From the NCBI GenBank assembly GCA_017462965.1, contig JAFTQC010000054.1, positions 1-64,000 of the forward strand: a DNA stretch of 64,000 nt, read 5' to 3'. The position numbers and the translations under genes were made by a program. Origin of the DNA: Clostridia bacterium (GTDB taxonomy: Bacteria > Bacillota > Clostridia > TANB77 > UBA1234). Shown piece after piece: positions 5,905 through 63,619 of this stretch (position 1 is its first letter; each line of letters opens with the position of its first letter). The notes under the pieces were generated by a model. The model saw only the letters and a program-made list of their open reading frames with translations. It did no database searches and was not told where the DNA came from.

Positions 5905-7032
5905 TTAAAACTTAACTTTTATAAGTTCATACTTAGATGTTCCAAGCCCTATCTTCTCACCATGTTCAATTTGACTCTCCCAGTTTGTATCAGGATGATT
6001 TGTGTGGAAATTATCTTTTTCACAAACATGTCTTTCAATATTTTCACCAAGCGCACTATTCATAAATGCAGTTTGTTCATTAACCAAATCAGCTGAAGCT
6101 CTGTCAATCGCAACGCTATCAAATGAAGCAAGCATACCAACGTTTGGAACAATTGGAGCATCATTTTCTGAATGGCAATCACAATTTGGAGAAACATCAC
6201 AAATTATATTAATATGGAACTCTGGTCTACCTTTAACAACTGCAAGCGCATACTCTGCCATTTTCTTATTCAATAAATCATTTGCCGAATTATTAGCAGG
6301 ACTAATTGCATCAAAATTACACATTCCTATACATCTTCCACAACCAACACATTTGTTATGATCAATCTCAGCAATTCCAGTAGATTCATTATAACTAATT
6401 GCATCGTGCGCACATATTTTAGCACAAATTTTGCATTTTTTACATTTACTATCTTTTACAACTGGCTTACCACTATAATGCATCTCCATCTTGCCAGCTC
6501 TTGAACCACAACCCATTCCAAGATTTTTAATCGCACCACCAAAACCTGTAGCTTCATGTCCTTTGAAATGATTAAGCGAAATTATAATATCCGCATCCAT
6601 AACCGCTCTACCGATTTTAGCTTCTTTTACATACTCTCCATTAATTGGAACTAAAGTTTCATCTGTTCCTTTCAAACCATCAGCGATAATGACTTGACAT
6701 CCTGTAGAATAAGGAGTAAATCCATTTTCATAAGCAGCATCAATGTGATCTAAAGCATTTTTTCTTCTACCAACATATAAAGTATTAGCATCAGTTAAGA
6801 AAGGTCTTCCACCTAATTCTCTAACTACATCAGCAACAGCCTTAGCATAATTAGGTCTTAAAAAAGCTAAATTACCAGGCTCTCCAAAATGAATTTTAAT
6901 AGCAACAAACTTATTATTAAAATCAATATTTTCAATACCTGCTTTTTTTATCAACATCTTCAACTTTTGTGGAATATTTAAACCTGGTCTTGCTCTAAAA
7001 TCTGTAAAATAAACTTTTGAATTTTCACTCAT
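5905..7032 (-). CDS. DUF362 domain protein with two 4Fe-4S ferredoxin clusters
   Basis: 375 aa. The N-terminal DUF362 domain (about 1-185) includes the conserved IKIHFGEPGN and ISLNHFKGHEATGFGGAIKN segments. Two ferredoxin motifs follow: CKKCKICAKICAHDA and CVGCGRCIGMCNFDA, each with the CxxCxxCxxxC spacing of a 4Fe-4S site. A C-terminal DUF362 portion completes the protein. It is probably a cytoplasmic iron-sulfur electron-transfer protein; the partner is unknown. It sits 12 bases after queH, an iron-sulfur oxidoreductase. The ferredoxin content fits an anaerobe. Confidence 0.9.
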   Translation of the reverse strand: MSENSKVYFTDFRARPGLNIPQKLKMLIKKAGIENIDFNNKFVAIKIHFGEPGNLAFLRPNYAKAVADVVRELGGRPFLTDANTLYVGRRKNALDHIDAAYENGFTPYSTGCQVIIADGLKGTDETLVPINGEYVKEAKIGRAVMDADIIISLNHFKGHEATGFGGAIKNLGMGCGSRAGKMEMHYSGKPVVKDSKCKKCKICAKICAHDAISYNESTGIAEIDHNKCVGCGRCIGMCNFDAISPANNSANDLLNKKMAEYALAVVKGRPEFHINIICDVSPNCDCHSENDAPIVPNVGMLASFDSVAIDRASADLVNEQTAFMNSALGENIERHVCEKDNFHTNHPDTNWESQIEHGEKIGLGTSKYELIKVKF

Positions 7033-7044
7033 TTTTCTTTCCTC

Positions 7045-7593
7045 CTAAACTTCTTTTTCAATTTGCTTCTTATATCTGTCTTCCTCTGAATATATACAAC
7101 CACAATACTTTTGCATATAAAGTCCTGCATCTCTTGCCATCTGCTGACCTATTCTAAAACCTTCTCTAAAGTCTTGATAAATGAATTCAACACCATACTT
7201 CTCAGCCATTTGATTTGCAACTTGTATGATTAATTCATGCTTTTGATAAGGACTAACTAAAAGCGTAGTTGTAAAAGCATCATATCCATTTTCTTTTGCA
7301 TACTTAGCCGTCTCTTCAAGCCTTGATTCATAACAAAACTTGCAACGTCCATCAATGTTACCAATTACAGACTTTGTAAATTCTCTAATGCCATAATTAT
7401 GATTTATAACAAGCGGCATATTTATCATTTCAGAATACATCTTCAAAGCATCTAATCTTGCCTTATATTCTGTATATGGATGGATATTGATGTTATACCA
7501 ATACGCAGTTATATCGTCATATCCATCTTTTCTCAATTTATCTACAACGTATGTTGAGCAAGGCGCACAACAAGTATGTAATAATAGCTTCAT
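7045..7593 (-). CDS. queH: epoxyqueuosine reductase QueH
   Basis: Last step of queuosine synthesis in tRNA, reducing epoxyqueuosine to queuosine. QueH (DUF208) is the non-B12 alternative to QueG. 182 aa. The N-terminal LLHTCCAPC cysteine pair, the GRCKFCYESRLEETA cysteines and the C-terminal YCGCIYSEEDRY cysteines match the cluster- and metal-binding pattern of the family. It starts two bases after ruvB ends, so the two are co-translated in one operon. Confidence 0.93.
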   Translation of the reverse strand: MKLLLHTCCAPCSTYVVDKLRKDGYDDITAYWYNINIHPYTEYKARLDALKMYSEMINMPLVINHNYGIREFTKSVIGNIDGRCKFCYESRLEETAKYAKENGYDAFTTTLLVSPYQKHELIIQVANQMAEKYGVEFIYQDFREGFRIGQQMARDAGLYMQKYCGCIYSEEDRYKKQIEKEV

Positions 7594-7595
7594 AT

Positions 7596-8603
7596 TTATT
7601 CCTCTTTCTTTATTCCCATATGCTCATATGCATCAAGCGTAGCCATTCTTCCTCTCGGTGTTCTATTTATAAAACCAATTTGCATTAAATATGGTTCATA
7701 AACATCTTCTATTGTTGAAACGTCTTCACCTATTGTTGCAGCAAGTGTTTCAACACCAACAGGTCCACCAGCAAATTTCTTGATAATTGCATCAAGCATT
7801 AATCTATCAATATTATCAAGTCCGATTTTATCTATCTCTAAACACTTCAAAGCTTTATCAGCAATTTCATCAGTAATAGTTCCATCGCCTGTTATCTCAG
7901 CAAAATCTCTAACACGCTTTAAAAGTCTATTTGCAATTCTAGGTGTTCCACGAGATCTTGACGCAACCTCTCTTGCCCCTTTATCCGTTATCTCTATTTT
8001 CAAAATTCCAGCCGAACGCTTAACTATATCTGTTAGCTGATCATTATTATACAATTCCAAACGATTAATAATTCCAAATCTATCTCTAAGTGGTGAAGAC
8101 AAATTTCCTGCTTTCGTCGTAGCACCAACCAATGTAAACTTTGGTAAGTCAAGTCTTATAGAACGAGCACTTGGACCTTTACCAATAATTATATCAAGCG
8201 AAAAATCTTCCATGGCAGGATATAAAATTTCTTCAACACTACGATTTAATCTATGTATCTCGTCTATAAACAAAACATCATTTGGCGCTAAATTAGTAAG
8301 CAAAGCCGCTAAATCACCAGGTTTTTCAATAGCTGGACCAGATGTAATTCTAATATTAGTATTCATTTCATTCGCAATAATATTTGCAAGCGTAGTTTTA
8401 CCAAGGCCCGGAGGCCCATATAATAAGGTATGATCAAGTGGCTCTCCTCTTTTTCTTGCCGCTTCTATAAACACTTTTAAATTTTCTTTAACCTTTTCTT
8501 GTCCAACATATTCTTCAATAACACGAGGTCTTAAACTATTTTCAATATCAGAATCCGAAGCTTCATATCCGGGACAAATTATTCTCTCTTCTTCTAAATC
8601 CAT
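7596..8603 (-). CDS. ruvB: Holliday junction branch-migration helicase RuvB
   Basis: Hexameric AAA+ motor that works with RuvA and RuvC on Holliday junctions. 335 aa from the ATG at 8603, which has AAGGAG seven bases upstream; an earlier in-frame TTG is less likely. Walker A is [11 protein letters not shown], Walker B is [11 protein letters not shown], sensor 1 is [10 protein letters not shown], and a C-terminal winged helix ends in [15 protein letters not shown]. ruvA is not adjacent but lies 25 kb away beside rarA, unlike the ruvAB operon of many bacteria. Confidence 0.97.
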
Positions 8604-8617
8604 TCTCAAACTCCTTA

Positions 8618-49417: not shown

Positions 49418-49780
49418 TTATTCAACTACAGTTTCTTCAGAATCTCCTGAGATTTCTCCTGACATGATTTCGCCAGAAACATCTCCGCTTAATTCTGATA
49501 GATCTCCGCTTACATCACCACTAACATCTCCGCTAATTACAGCCTCATGTTCATGATCATGTCCCTCGATAGGTCCTAAGATTAAGTTGTAATAACTATC
49601 ACTTAAGAAATCAAAGAAAAGATTTAAAATGATTAATATTACAGAAATTAGTAAAACAAATCCTATTGTAACAGCAGTACTTTTTGCTGTTTGTTTTCCT
49701 GTAGGCCAAACAACTTTTTTTAGTTCAGATTTCATGTTAGCTATAAAGCCTTTTGAATTCTTCTTCTCTTCGTTTTGCAT
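49418..49780 (-). CDS. secE: preprotein translocase subunit SecE with acidic repeat tail
   Basis: Essential single-span subunit of the SecYEG channel. The SecE domain is at about residues 9-62 (MKSELKKVVWPTGKQTAKST plus one membrane helix). At 120 aa it is about twice the length of common Gram-positive SecE. The extra C-terminal part is GHDHEHE followed by five SGD/SGE-type repeats. The tail should be on the extracytoplasmic side given normal SecE topology. Role of the tail unknown. Confidence 0.93.
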   Translation of the reverse strand: MQNEEKKNSKGFIANMKSELKKVVWPTGKQTAKSTAVTIGFVLLISVILIILNLFFDFLSDSYYNLILGPIEGHDHEHEAVISGDVSGDVSGDLSELSGDVSGEIMSGEISGDSEETVVE

Positions 49781-59792: not shown

Positions 59793-62700
59793 TTATCTGA
59801 ATGTAAGTACTGGTCTAAAGCCTGTTTCCTCATTTGCAGCACCGTCAGATTGATCAAAATTAAATAAGCCCGCTCCACTTCCGTCTTTAGCGCTACCACC
59901 TCTTGTAAAGAATGGTTTTGTTGTTGCTGGGAAGTTTGTTGTGTCTGATTCTACTCCATAATTTCCAAGATATCCTGTTGATGTTTCGTATATAGCATTT
60001 CCATATATAGCATCTTGTAACCCATTTCTGTTGTAATTGTTTATTGCAGCATCTGTATCTGCAACTGAATATACTTCTCTTAGCGATGGCGTCGTCGTTT
60101 GAGTCATTTTTTCCGCATTTGTTTGAATGCATTCATCACTGTTTGCAACATATGTCGCAACAAATTCTGACGCACCACCTACTAAATCATATATTCCATA
60201 TATATTTCCTGTTGTACTTGCATACATACCTGATGTCGAAATTGATGCTCTAACATCATATGCATACGAACCTTCAAATTTTGATGCAGTAGCAGTATAT
60301 GCACTTGTTCCAGCACCACCACCACCTGTTACAAAACCAGAATTTCTGTTTCCAGCTGGCTCATGCCCATTTCTACCATACGCACTGTATGTTAAATATG
60401 CAACTGCTCCCCACTCACTATTTTTCATTAAGTGTGAATATAAGCCTGGGAACATTAATTCAGAGTATTTATACGCGTCACCAACTTTTACATTTGTAAA
60501 GCTTTTTACTGATGGAACTGATTTTATTGTTGTTGACACACCTTGTTCATCTATTTTAGAATCTGCTCTACTTGCTTCAAATTTTGCAACCCAAATTCCT
60601 GTAACGTCTGTGCTCCATTTTCCTAATGAATTACTTATTGTTGACGTATTCGCACCAGTAAACGCAGGGTGAACTATATACTCCTCAGGTAATTGTTTTA
60701 TTGTTATAGCATTTGTTTCAATATTTTCTTCTTTATATTGCGTACTTGATACTCCATCTAGGAAAATTATATCTATCATTACATTTGTCGTTTTTACATC
60801 GTCTGGATTTGAAGCAACTGTTATTCCGTCACTTTGATAATAATGCATTCCCTTTGCTGTAGAATTTTGATAATAACCTTTTACTATTGTTTTAGCTGTA
60901 TCTTCATAATATGTTATTTTGTAAGCGTATCTTGGTATCCACACCCAATAGCTTCCATCTGCAGTTTTTGCATTTGCCCATATATTTTCTCTTTTGTCAT
61001 TAACGTTATCTCCAATTTCGTAATTGTACCACGTTACCTCTTCGCCGTCTTTTGTTTTCCATGTGTTATGATTTATTTCAATCTCTTCTGTAGGAATATC
61101 TAATGTTCCATCCCATACTATCGCCGTCATTCCCGTAGCCATTGCTGGAACATTTGGTAATGTTCTTGCCCTATGTAATGGACTCTTAATTTCTGTAACT
61201 TTTGATTCTGTCACATTTCCTGCATTATCTGTTGCCCTCGTTTTTATTTGATATTCTTTATTTTCTTCAACAACTACACCATTTAAAGATGAGCGCCACG
61301 TATAATTAGCATCATCTTTTAATTTATATCCATATTCAACAAAAGCAATACCACTTTCTTTATCTTCTTGCATACTTTCCACATATAGTGTTAAGTCATT
61401 GCCTATTTCATCAACTTCTGGGCTTGTATCTGTTGGAGGAATTGTATCTAAAAAGATTTTAGATGAAACTCTTTCATATTTTAAAACTCCATTTTCCATT
61501 TGGTTTGCAGTTACAAAAACGAAAACTTCAATTTCTCCATCTGGACCTTCTAGTTCAAAATCTGTTATTTCTTTTTCTAAATCTACCCAATCCGTCACTT
61601 CAGGAACATAGTCTGGATCACATGTAATATACATTGCCATATCACTTGCACCTTGTGCTTTTATATCTAAATCTACTTTTCTGTCTGAAGTATATTTATC
61701 TCCTTTGTTTATTGTAACTTGTACTCCTGCCAAAGGTTGTATAACCGTTTCTATAAAATGACTATCCATAAGCATTTTTCTTGAAACAACACATAACTCA
61801 TTATCCTTGTTTGTAACGCTATAATTTCCTGCATAGTCTTCTACATATAAAACTATATTTACTTCGTCATCGCTGTATCTCATTCCATTAAATTGAAATT
61901 GAGGAAATTCATCATCTAAATTTTTTAAATCTCCTGAAGGATTTAAAAGTTCCGCTTCATATCTAGCTAAATATTCTTCATATTCAGATTTATATGTATT
62001 GATACTTCTACCAATATGAGGTTCATCAACGCCATTTACTCTTTCACCAGTATATGCCTCTTCATATGTTAAAATTCCGCCTCCTGTTGCGTTTGGCAAT
62101 GCACCTTTTGGTCCTTGCATATATGTTTCAATATTTGTCGCTCTTTCTGTATCTGAAATTGAATCATATGCCATTATCTTATAATGTATTTTTGCTATTC
62201 CTGTTTCGTTATCTATTACAACAATTTCATTTGTATCTGAACGATATACTGACGGATTAATTTCGTCTATTTTATTTACTACAACATTTACTACTTTTGC
62301 TTGTCCTTCTTCATTTTCAACATATATACTATGAATACCATTTTCTGATATTTCAATAGGATTGCCATATTCAAAAAATGTACCCATGTTAGTAAATTGC
62401 TTTGCTGAAATTGGACCATCTTTATAATATTTAAATGTCCACTTACCATTTACATTAGCCTCTTCCGGAATCGAAACTAACATATTAAATTTCTTCGTCC
62501 ATACAATTGGATTTCCTATAATATCTACTTCAAAATCTTGTACTGCTCCATAAACTTTTTCAATTCCCAAGATTTCATCCGTTAATGTATAATACTTAAC
62601 ACCTTCATACTCAACTGGTTTTAAGACATATATATTAAGCGTATTTTCATTTAATACATATCCACCTCTGTCATCATCAAAAAGTTTTATTGCTCCAAGT

Positions 62701-63002
62701 TTCGTAAGGTCAACCTCATAATACTCCCCTTTATCTTTTGGATCAATTTGACCTTGCATATCTTCTGGCACATCAATTGGATTTGCCACGCCATCTTCAT
62801 ACACTATTGGCAGTATGTTTTTACTTGAATAGTACGCAAGCACAAATTCTTCAACTTCTTGTATATCATTCATAAACTCAGTTATTGCTTTATCTTTCGT
62901 CAAACTCCTCATAGAAACAATAGCAGTTGATGTAAGTATTAACATTACAGCTATTGTTATAACAAGCACATTAAGTGAATATCCTTTTTCTTTTGTTTTC
63001 AT
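59793..63002 (-). CDS. giant pilin-like surface protein with SUMF/C-lectin-like C-terminus
   Basis: About 1069 aa. The N-terminus has a short basic leader then GYSLNVLVITIAVMLILTST, the form of a type IV prepilin or pseudopilin helix. Residues about 160-600 are Ig-like, beta-rich modules (several DNAGN/DYAGNY motifs). The C-terminal 450 residues resemble the SUMF/formylglycine-enzyme or C-type-lectin fold: YWVWIPRYAYKI, EWGAVAYLTYSAYGRNG, GIYDLVGGASEFVATYV, and RGGSAKDGSGAGLFNFDQSD with GFRPVLTFR at the end. ATG at 63002 has GAGGTG six bases upstream. Probably an extracellular adhesin. It lies between spoIVFB and rplU. Confidence 0.8.
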   Translation of the reverse strand: MKTKEKGYSLNVLVITIAVMLILTSTAIVSMRSLTKDKAITEFMNDIQEVEEFVLAYYSSKNILPIVYEDGVANPIDVPEDMQGQIDPKDKGEYYEVDLTKLGAIKLFDDDRGGYVLNENTLNIYVLKPVEYEGVKYYTLTDEILGIEKVYGAVQDFEVDIIGNPIVWTKKFNMLVSIPEEANVNGKWTFKYYKDGPISAKQFTNMGTFFEYGNPIEISENGIHSIYVENEEGQAKVVNVVVNKIDEINPSVYRSDTNEIVVIDNETGIAKIHYKIMAYDSISDTERATNIETYMQGPKGALPNATGGGILTYEEAYTGERVNGVDEPHIGRSINTYKSEYEEYLARYEAELLNPSGDLKNLDDEFPQFQFNGMRYSDDEVNIVLYVEDYAGNYSVTNKDNELCVVSRKMLMDSHFIETVIQPLAGVQVTINKGDKYTSDRKVDLDIKAQGASDMAMYITCDPDYVPEVTDWVDLEKEITDFELEGPDGEIEVFVFVTANQMENGVLKYERVSSKIFLDTIPPTDTSPEVDEIGNDLTLYVESMQEDKESGIAFVEYGYKLKDDANYTWRSSLNGVVVEENKEYQIKTRATDNAGNVTESKVTEIKSPLHRARTLPNVPAMATGMTAIVWDGTLDIPTEEIEINHNTWKTKDGEEVTWYNYEIGDNVNDKRENIWANAKTADGSYWVWIPRYAYKITYYEDTAKTIVKGYYQNSTAKGMHYYQSDGITVASNPDDVKTTNVMIDIIFLDGVSSTQYKEENIETNAITIKQLPEEYIVHPAFTGANTSTISNSLGKWSTDVTGIWVAKFEASRADSKIDEQGVSTTIKSVPSVKSFTNVKVGDAYKYSELMFPGLYSHLMKNSEWGAVAYLTYSAYGRNGHEPAGNRNSGFVTGGGGAGTSAYTATASKFEGSYAYDVRASISTSGMYASTTGNIYGIYDLVGGASEFVATYVANSDECIQTNAEKMTQTTTPSLREVYSVADTDAAINNYNRNGLQDAIYGNAIYETSTGYLGNYGVESDTTNFPATTKPFFTRGGSAKDGSGAGLFNFDQSDGAANEETGFRPVLTFR

Positions 63003-63034
63003 GCATTTCACCTCAATATTTAGTTTAATATTTA

Positions 63035-63619
63035 TTAGTCAATTTGTAAATAGTTAATTGCTGCATTAAACCTTGCATTTCTAGCTTCTTCTTTTATTAT
63101 GCAAATCATATATATTATTAGTATTACAAGATAATAATTCTTCGAAAAAATTACTATTAAAATTGAAAATATTAACAATAAATTTAGAATTATTTTTGAT
63201 AATATATTTAATATTTTATTTGCTATTTTTTCATTTAACGAAATTTTCAAAATATTCTCAAATATTTTTCCACCATCAAATGGTTTTATTGGTATCAAAT
63301 TGAATGTCGCTATCGAGAAATTCATTATTTTAAAAGTTTCATTTTCAAACATTAATGCAAATAAAAAACTGGCTATTGGACCTGCAAGACTTATAAGTAA
63401 TTCTTTAAGCTTCGTATTTTCCCCTTTATACTTAGCATTTACGCCAACAGGCAACAATTCAATTTCATATACATTCATTTTCAAAATTAATGCTACCAAC
63501 ATATGCGCAATTTCATGCATAATTACAAACGCATACATACACATAAAGTTTTCTATATTTTGAATTGCAAACATATATGCCATCACAAGTAACAAGTATA
63601 TGTGAATTCTTACAGCCAA
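63035..63619 (-). CDS. spoIVFB: SpoIVFB-type intramembrane metalloprotease (M50)
   Basis: Site-2-protease family. In Bacillus it cleaves pro-sigma-K in the mother cell. 194 aa with about six helices. The zinc motif is HEIAHMLVAL (HExxH) and the second ligand motif is NLIPIKPFDGGKI (the NPxPxxxxDG type). The likely start is a TTG at 63619, overlapping the spoIVFA stop by ten bases. The gene order with rplU-rpmA-obg downstream supports the name. Confidence 0.88.
   Translation of the reverse strand: MAVRIHIYLLLVMAYMFAIQNIENFMCMYAFVIMHEIAHMLVALILKMNVYEIELLPVGVNAKYKGENTKLKELLISLAGPIASFLFALMFENETFKIMNFSIATFNLIPIKPFDGGKIFENILKISLNEKIANKILNILSKIILNLLLIFSILIVIFSKNYYLVILIIYMICIIKEEARNARFNAAINYLQID

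Follow-up and report, generated by a model that had tools for sequence, protein, structure and literature searches.

A gene on the reverse strand of the window (the whole 64,000-nucleotide stretch of a contig from a gut Clostridia bacterium that was analysed) on balance probably encodes a very large modular type IV-like pilin, in which a prepilin-type leader and helix, an Ig-like stalk and a C-terminal lectin-fold domain of the formylglycine enzyme (FGE) subtype are combined, and which would be assembled by the pilus machine on contig C44 of the same genome as a probable tip adhesin of fixed specificity. The C44 prepilin peptidase would trim the protein between the final G of MKTKEKG and the Y that follows, after which the C44 machine may add it as a rare, bulky subunit, probably at the pilus tip on account of its bulk. 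There the long Ig-like stalk would carry the lectin-fold end for display, and the C-terminal domain would bind its ligand, either a glycan or a protein, carried by a host cell, by mucus or by a neighbouring microbe, with a specificity that is predicted to be fixed, unlike that of the hypermutated variable proteins of diversity-generating retroelements (DGRs) that share this domain family in related Clostridia.

The open reading frame spans 59793–63011 (reverse strand; 1072 codons counted from GTG), with an in-frame ATG as codon 4 at 63002 and GAGGTG six bases upstream; from this context, the ATG is likely the start of the gene. Residues are numbered from the GTG at 63011, making the ATG residue 4. 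The features are as follows.

59793–63002, reverse strand: coding sequence of the modular pilin-like protein, 1069 amino acids from the ATG (open frame; GAGGTG six bases before the ATG)
63009–63014, reverse strand: GAGGTG, likely ribosome-binding site (sequence)
62982–63002, reverse strand: prepilin-type leader MKTKEKG, predicted cut after G (sequence; cleavage predicted)
62823–62981, reverse strand: pilin-like first helix and next residues (11–63), without Glu at mature position 5 (AF2, blastp, identity with the G005 orthologue)
61722–62822, reverse strand: residues 64–430, core common to shorter syntenic relatives without a lectin domain (blastp)
61188–61721, reverse strand: residues 431–608, Ig-like stalk, of which 549–608 are OmpL47-like (NCBIfam match; AF2 strands)
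59796–61187, reverse strand: residues 609–1072, C-type-lectin domain, FGE subtype (alignment of 20 relatives; AF2; TaqVP match)
59802–59903, reverse strand: residues 1037–1070 (RGGS...GFRPVL), counterpart of the DGR variable region, fixed here (alignments; dN/dS; template search)
63035–63619, reverse strand: upstream M50-type protease gene, separated from the ATG by 32 bases (ORF; order kept in related genomes)

The C-terminal segment, of which some 450 residues had been called SUMF/C-lectin-like in a preliminary description of this DNA, proved to be a 464-residue domain of the FGE subtype of the C-type-lectin fold, with TaqVP, the Thermus aquaticus DGR variable protein (5VF4; PMC6328139), as its best match by sequence, Foldseek and VIA-align. 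The domain in the window sequence would be missed by Pfam alone: the window protein itself has no match to the FGE-sulfatase profile, and PF03781 was matched at E ≤ 1 by 12 of 20 aligned relatives (best 5.3e-6). A phmmer search with the window protein retrieved TaqVP (5vf4) at E 1.4e-4, and a profile of the 20 relatives searched against the PDB gave TaqVP as its sole match (E 1.9e-4). AF2 modelling of the domain from 70 sequences (69 of 79 usable domains being given, with shifted or odd tails left out) returned a pLDDT of 82 and a pTM of 0.90; 38 prepilin-type full ORFs were taken as a separate set. Three TaqVP chains were the only Foldseek matches of the domain model below 0.001 (best E 4e-10), their TM-scores reaching only 0.33–0.42 because the loops and the first part differ, and VIA-align superposed model and TaqVP with Z 20.7 over 250 residues at 3.4 Å, followed by PvdO (12.4), TvpA (12.1), and FGEs and Mtd (about 10–11 each). 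Taken together, the PF03781 matches of the relatives and the phmmer, Foldseek and VIA-align results on TaqVP identify a real lectin-fold domain of about 464 residues, and its closeness to DGR binding proteins, far above enzymes, argues for a binding end.

The preceding regions are less clearly resolved. Matches by blastp in genomes G004, G006, G007, G009, G010 and G012 stop at residues 292–427 of the window protein, and residues 549–608 match NCBIfam NF047446 with E 7.6e-10 at 39.1 bits, under the cut-off of 40. The stalk (431–608) is modelled as strands at low confidence; the full-length AF2 model has a mean pLDDT of 56, is of low quality except in the helix and the lectin domain, and falls under 50 for most of residues 67–600. 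The weak modelling of the stalk and of any globular pilin part counts against the modular-pilin reading.

The N-terminus reads MKTKEKG, the predicted cut and then YSLNVLVITIAVMLILTSTAIVSM (leader MKTKEKG/YSL, the slash marking the cut), and a class III prepilin leader, with G as its last residue and a hydrophobic helix after it, is present by sequence (MKTKEKG/YSLNVLVITIAVMLIL). Residues 13–63 form one helix in the full-length AF2 model, in which confidence at this position is only moderate, and residues 4–57 are 41% identical over 54 residues (E 1e-8, two-sequence blastp) to a pilin-like ORF that follows pilC in the same genome; leader motif, helix and this similarity thus sustain the prepilin-like N-terminus noted previously. 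All 28 residues from 8 to 35 are identical in the G005 orthologue. Mature position 5 is Val in place of the usual pilin Glu5, which is also absent from the ORF beside pilC; a glutamate at this position is usual for type IV pilins, not universal. The Pfam pilin profile (N_methyl) finds no match in the window protein at E ≤ 1, nor in the ORF beside pilC at E ≤ 0.01. The missing Glu5 and the missing profile match weaken the designation of a canonical pilin, not that of a protein working like a modular pilin. The gene is single-copy in its 2.07-Mb genome, where the window protein has two other matches, one to an Ig-like part of a giant ORF and one to the N-terminal end of the pilin-like ORF.

Pilus genes are encoded elsewhere in the genome, as had been suggested from their absence near the window gene; within the window, a loose scan for prepilin motifs returned one weak further candidate (49418–49780). 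The locus on contig C44 comprises a PilN-like gene (scoring below the Pfam cut-off), a prepilin peptidase (A24 peptidase), a minor pilin with E5, a further pilin-like ORF, PilB split over two frames, PilC and, directly after pilC, the E5-less pilin-like ORF (L043:8467-9348), so that the pilD, pilB and pilC counterparts to be looked for are found. Contig C42 encodes an ATPase which, from its N-terminal motif, we take to be PilT-type. Each of the six genomes of the genus has peptidase, pilB and pilC in this order, with a pilin after pilC in five; in the sixth, G004, the contig stops there. Across the order, T2SSF was matched in 48 of 57 genomes, 44 of which also match the window protein (E 1e-5), as against one of the nine lacking a T2SSF match (Fisher p 2.5e-6, not corrected for kinship). 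This association holds at family level, since a genome match may come from the pilin or the lectin part; in genus g10, the two matches agree in 15 of 15 genomes. G022, which has a prepilin-like CLec protein and no T2SSF match, either speaks against a strict need for a pilus machine or reflects an assembly gap there. A second T2SSE/T2SSF pair, presumably like Tad-type genes, and a second prepilin peptidase are present in the genome of the window (L009, G000:C12; L243, G000:C70), and the window protein could in principle use a system other than that on C44.

The pilB gene of this genome lies in two frames (L043:5221-6874, G000:C44), and a single extra base splits it in four of the six genomes of the genus (this genome, L245, L246 and L247) at two recurring sites, one shared by this genome and G002, the other by G005, G003 and G002. 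The extra base is always C, giving an in-frame CGG followed by A, where a +1 shift would restore GGA; within the order, 3 of 287 genomes, all from this genus, show the pattern of the second site. The split could be a programmed +1 frameshift, and no tRNA-Arg with a CCG anticodon was seen among the scanned tRNA loci (part of 58 matches). In a codon-wise frameshift test over the window and 22 other stretches of the genome, CGG accounted for 3 of 38 near-end sites, roughly double the mean, and ranked behind GGG, TGG, AGG and GGA, making it not special genome-wide; a literature search on programmed frameshifting in pilB returned nothing relevant among the papers listed. Unless a programmed shift joins the two frames of pilB, the break may leave the pilus inactive.

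Related loci add to this picture. Matches to the window protein reach 35 stretches per related genome (stretches, not gene counts), and the best 80 of 552 confirmed stretches, forming 79 loci, contain 90 CLec ORFs. Of these, 51 start like a prepilin, 31 start otherwise and 8 are truncated, by a rough rule in which start codons are chosen mechanically and some ORFs scored as other have a GITL-type start. The leader, the helix and the likeness to the ORF beside pilC count for the modular-pilin reading, as do the pilus machinery, the co-occurrence with T2SSF and the prepilin-like starts of these relatives. Against it count the lack of Glu5 and of an N_methyl match, the pilB frame break, the G022 exception and the position of the gene behind protease genes rather than pilus genes.

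This position is central to a less likely alternative, in which the helix is a mere membrane anchor and the protein remains in the envelope of the cell or spore, is produced along with M50 and M23 proteases and binds a wall or envelope component through its lectin-fold end. An M23 ORF precedes the M50 ORF, which we take to be SpoIVFB-like, and the window gene, whose ATG follows the M50 ORF at a distance of 32 bases and which is therefore probably co-transcribed with it, precedes a cluster whose genes are presumably rplU, rpmA and obg. Every one of the five remaining genomes of the genus has an orthologue behind this M50 gene, and three more genomes of the family, G006, G007 and G009, have a core form there (cut by its contig in G009); in g4 genomes, by contrast, the core form is located elsewhere, and the protease link is not constant. 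The absent Glu5, the pilB break, the 31 relatives with other, apparently non-prepilin anchors and the G022 protein also favour a plain anchor, whereas the prepilin-type K-G/Y-S-L motif with its helix, the likeness to an ORF in the pilus operon and the co-occurrence with T2SSF speak against it. Within the genus, the lectin domain is present in the orthologues of G002, G003 and G005; that of G004 (383 aa) stops after the core, and that of G001 (884 aa) has a different end. The presence of the domain at the M50 place in four of six species of the genus is compatible with its having been grafted onto an older pilin-like protein, or with its having been lost repeatedly.

Rewriting of the tail of the window protein in trans, by a reverse transcriptase (RT) from a template, is very improbable, although the nearest known structure belongs to a DGR variable protein, DGRs target paralogues in the order and the genome has a DGR of its own. 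The last 218 bases of the gene have only short, chance-level DNA matches in this genome (best E 0.39), an assembly of 76 contigs in which a gap is possible. RVT_1 has three matches there, one of them within a prophage DGR (L044:5302-8605, G000:C62) that consists of a tail fibre, a small ORF in the helper position, a template and an RT (7427–8605). The variable repeat of the tail fibre (6470–6564) differs from the template (7238–7332) at 11 positions, all of them template adenines, and the cassette is the sole template/variable pair found in the genome. A check for an RT with a matching template, as the preliminary description had proposed, leads to the tail fibre and not to the window gene: the non-A positions of the template all agree with its prophage target, and no more than 49% of them agree with any part of the window. 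The two further RTs of the genome (L045:5403-6413 and L046:2302-3204) are best assigned by PADLOC as retron types VI and II-A, and a similar prophage DGR with 15 differences, A-only, was observed in the congener G001 (L113).

Compared with the nearest orthologue, that of G005, a species comparison within the genus, 28 of 34 tail residues are identical and dN/dS is 0.16 in the tail, 0.09 in the remaining domain and 0.15 in the stalk. With many synonymous changes, the tail is by these ratios under purifying selection; it changes slightly faster than the other parts of the domain, which would suit a binding face. Orthologues are present in G003 and G005, two genomes with a listed completeness of 100% and no RVT_1 match. 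Lack of a template, purifying selection and RT-less orthologue genomes together mark the window gene as fixed as far as can be seen, and it was rejected as a DGR target; the suggestion that DGRs vary the RGGS...GFRPVL tail fails for this gene and stands for paralogues in related genomes.

A surface-displayed enzyme of the FGE or sulfoxide-synthase kind is less probable still, because, for all the FGE subtype of the fold and its structural matches to FGE, EgtB and PvdO, Cys961 is the sole cysteine of the domain and none follows RGGS, where the FGE pair presumably lies, and TaqVP scores Z 20.7 against about 10–12 for enzymes. A Ser-Cys-Cys triad is named for FGE in PMC6328139, and the catalytic cysteine pair is absent from the C-terminal segment of the window protein, on which ground the FGE reading was rejected. 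A phage gene was also rejected, with no tblastn match in 50,697 phage records and no PHROG match for the domain.

Modular pilins and DGR variable proteins are each known. TaqVP, itself a DGR target, is described as a single-domain protein (PMC6328139), whereas the window protein adds a prepilin-like N-terminus and a stalk and has no template found for it. Minor pilins PilB and PilC of Streptococcus sanguinis likewise join a pilin-type N-terminus to a large binding module and are proposed to form a tip adhesin (PMC8179133); their module is vWA or concanavalin-like in place of the FGE-type lectin fold, and PilB, a precedent that counts for the modular-pilin reading, has a canonical pilin module, whereas the pilin-type N-terminus of the window protein is recognised from leader and helix. 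In Bacteroides, DGRs act on type V pilus tip pilins, according to a review (PMC12632263), a different pilus type and phylum, and diversified where the window gene is acted on by no DGR. A term search for 'pilin' gave 0 occurrences in Roux 2021 (PMC8144416). Yan 2019 (PMC6642488), with reference to a further paper, mentions 'putative pilin structures' for target proteins of the DUF1566 kind, and pilin-linked DGR targets as such are thus already in print. Type IV-like, prepilin-anchored DGR targets in Clostridia were not found named in a limited search of open-access literature.

Judged from sequence comparisons, the DGR idea holds for predicted pilin-anchored paralogues of the lectin-fold domain in the same order. 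Eight DGR-linked CLec proteins (L097, L098, L100, L101, L110, L151, L163 and L166) share with the window protein a homologous C-terminal domain (35–39% identity for members of alignment A1) and a prepilin-like N-terminus; they differ in a leader of the KGITLIALVITIIVLLILAG type, in a length of 481–662 aa without the long stalk, and in a template repeat just downstream, differences from which fall nearly all at adenines. Given as template-adenine differences/other differences, cassettes with CLec targets found in part of the 26 genomes screened for RT are L097 (19/4), L098 (17/1), L100 (17/2), L101 (16/1), L110 (13/0) and a second G025 cassette, L226 (12/5); the helper of L097 matches Pfam bAvd (E 2.8e-24). 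Among the 79 loci, five contain an RT ORF and four a clean template (L126, 26/0; L151, 17/0; L163, 26/0; L166, 9/0), the target in L126 failing the prepilin rule; the counts of the two sets are not to be added, since their source genomes overlap. A template/variable scanner, from whose output simple-repeat artefacts in L064 and L116 were dropped, missed cassettes found by blastn in G036, G054 and G025, and its blanks are thus not evidence of absence.

It is tentatively proposed, as a possibility falling short of probable, that the DGRs of this order of uncultured Clostridia run a retro-mutable repertoire of pilus-borne lectin tips, in which one RT and template would rewrite several unlinked pilin-anchored tails in trans, with the window gene as a fixed member at a conserved place and with a constant ligand. 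The template of G027 (one RVT_1 match) differs from its cis target by 13/0, and remote copies in the same genome by 17/1, 18/4, 14/5, 15/6 and 18/14, the fitting variable repeats being spread over five contigs; other G027 copies are far from the template (e.g. 16/30). Remote copies in G054 show little adenine bias (e.g. 11/23, p 0.09), indicating that diversification in trans is not general. If true, modular pilins and DGR variable proteins would meet in the type IV-like pilins of gut Clostridia, in many copies per genome, a commensal lineage would gain a directed-evolution system for what its pili hold, and the window gene would offer a fixed reference version for studying display and ligand binding without variation.

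In a tree of 89 domains, the window protein groups with its three orthologues (100/98), and nine DGR-linked members are spread across both halves of the midpoint-rooted tree; with unlabelled members interspersed, the tree speaks for neither a single origin nor several, and no direction of change is drawn from it. Around its one RVT_1 gene, G027 carries no fewer than twelve pilin-anchored CLec ORFs whose tails vary strongly (L110, L215–L223), several of them in tandem on C6 and C16. In the CLec ORFs of L118, L125, L127, L139 and L157, the final codons depart from the expected frame soon after the variable tail begins, which may reflect mixed-strain assembly over a hypervariable stretch.
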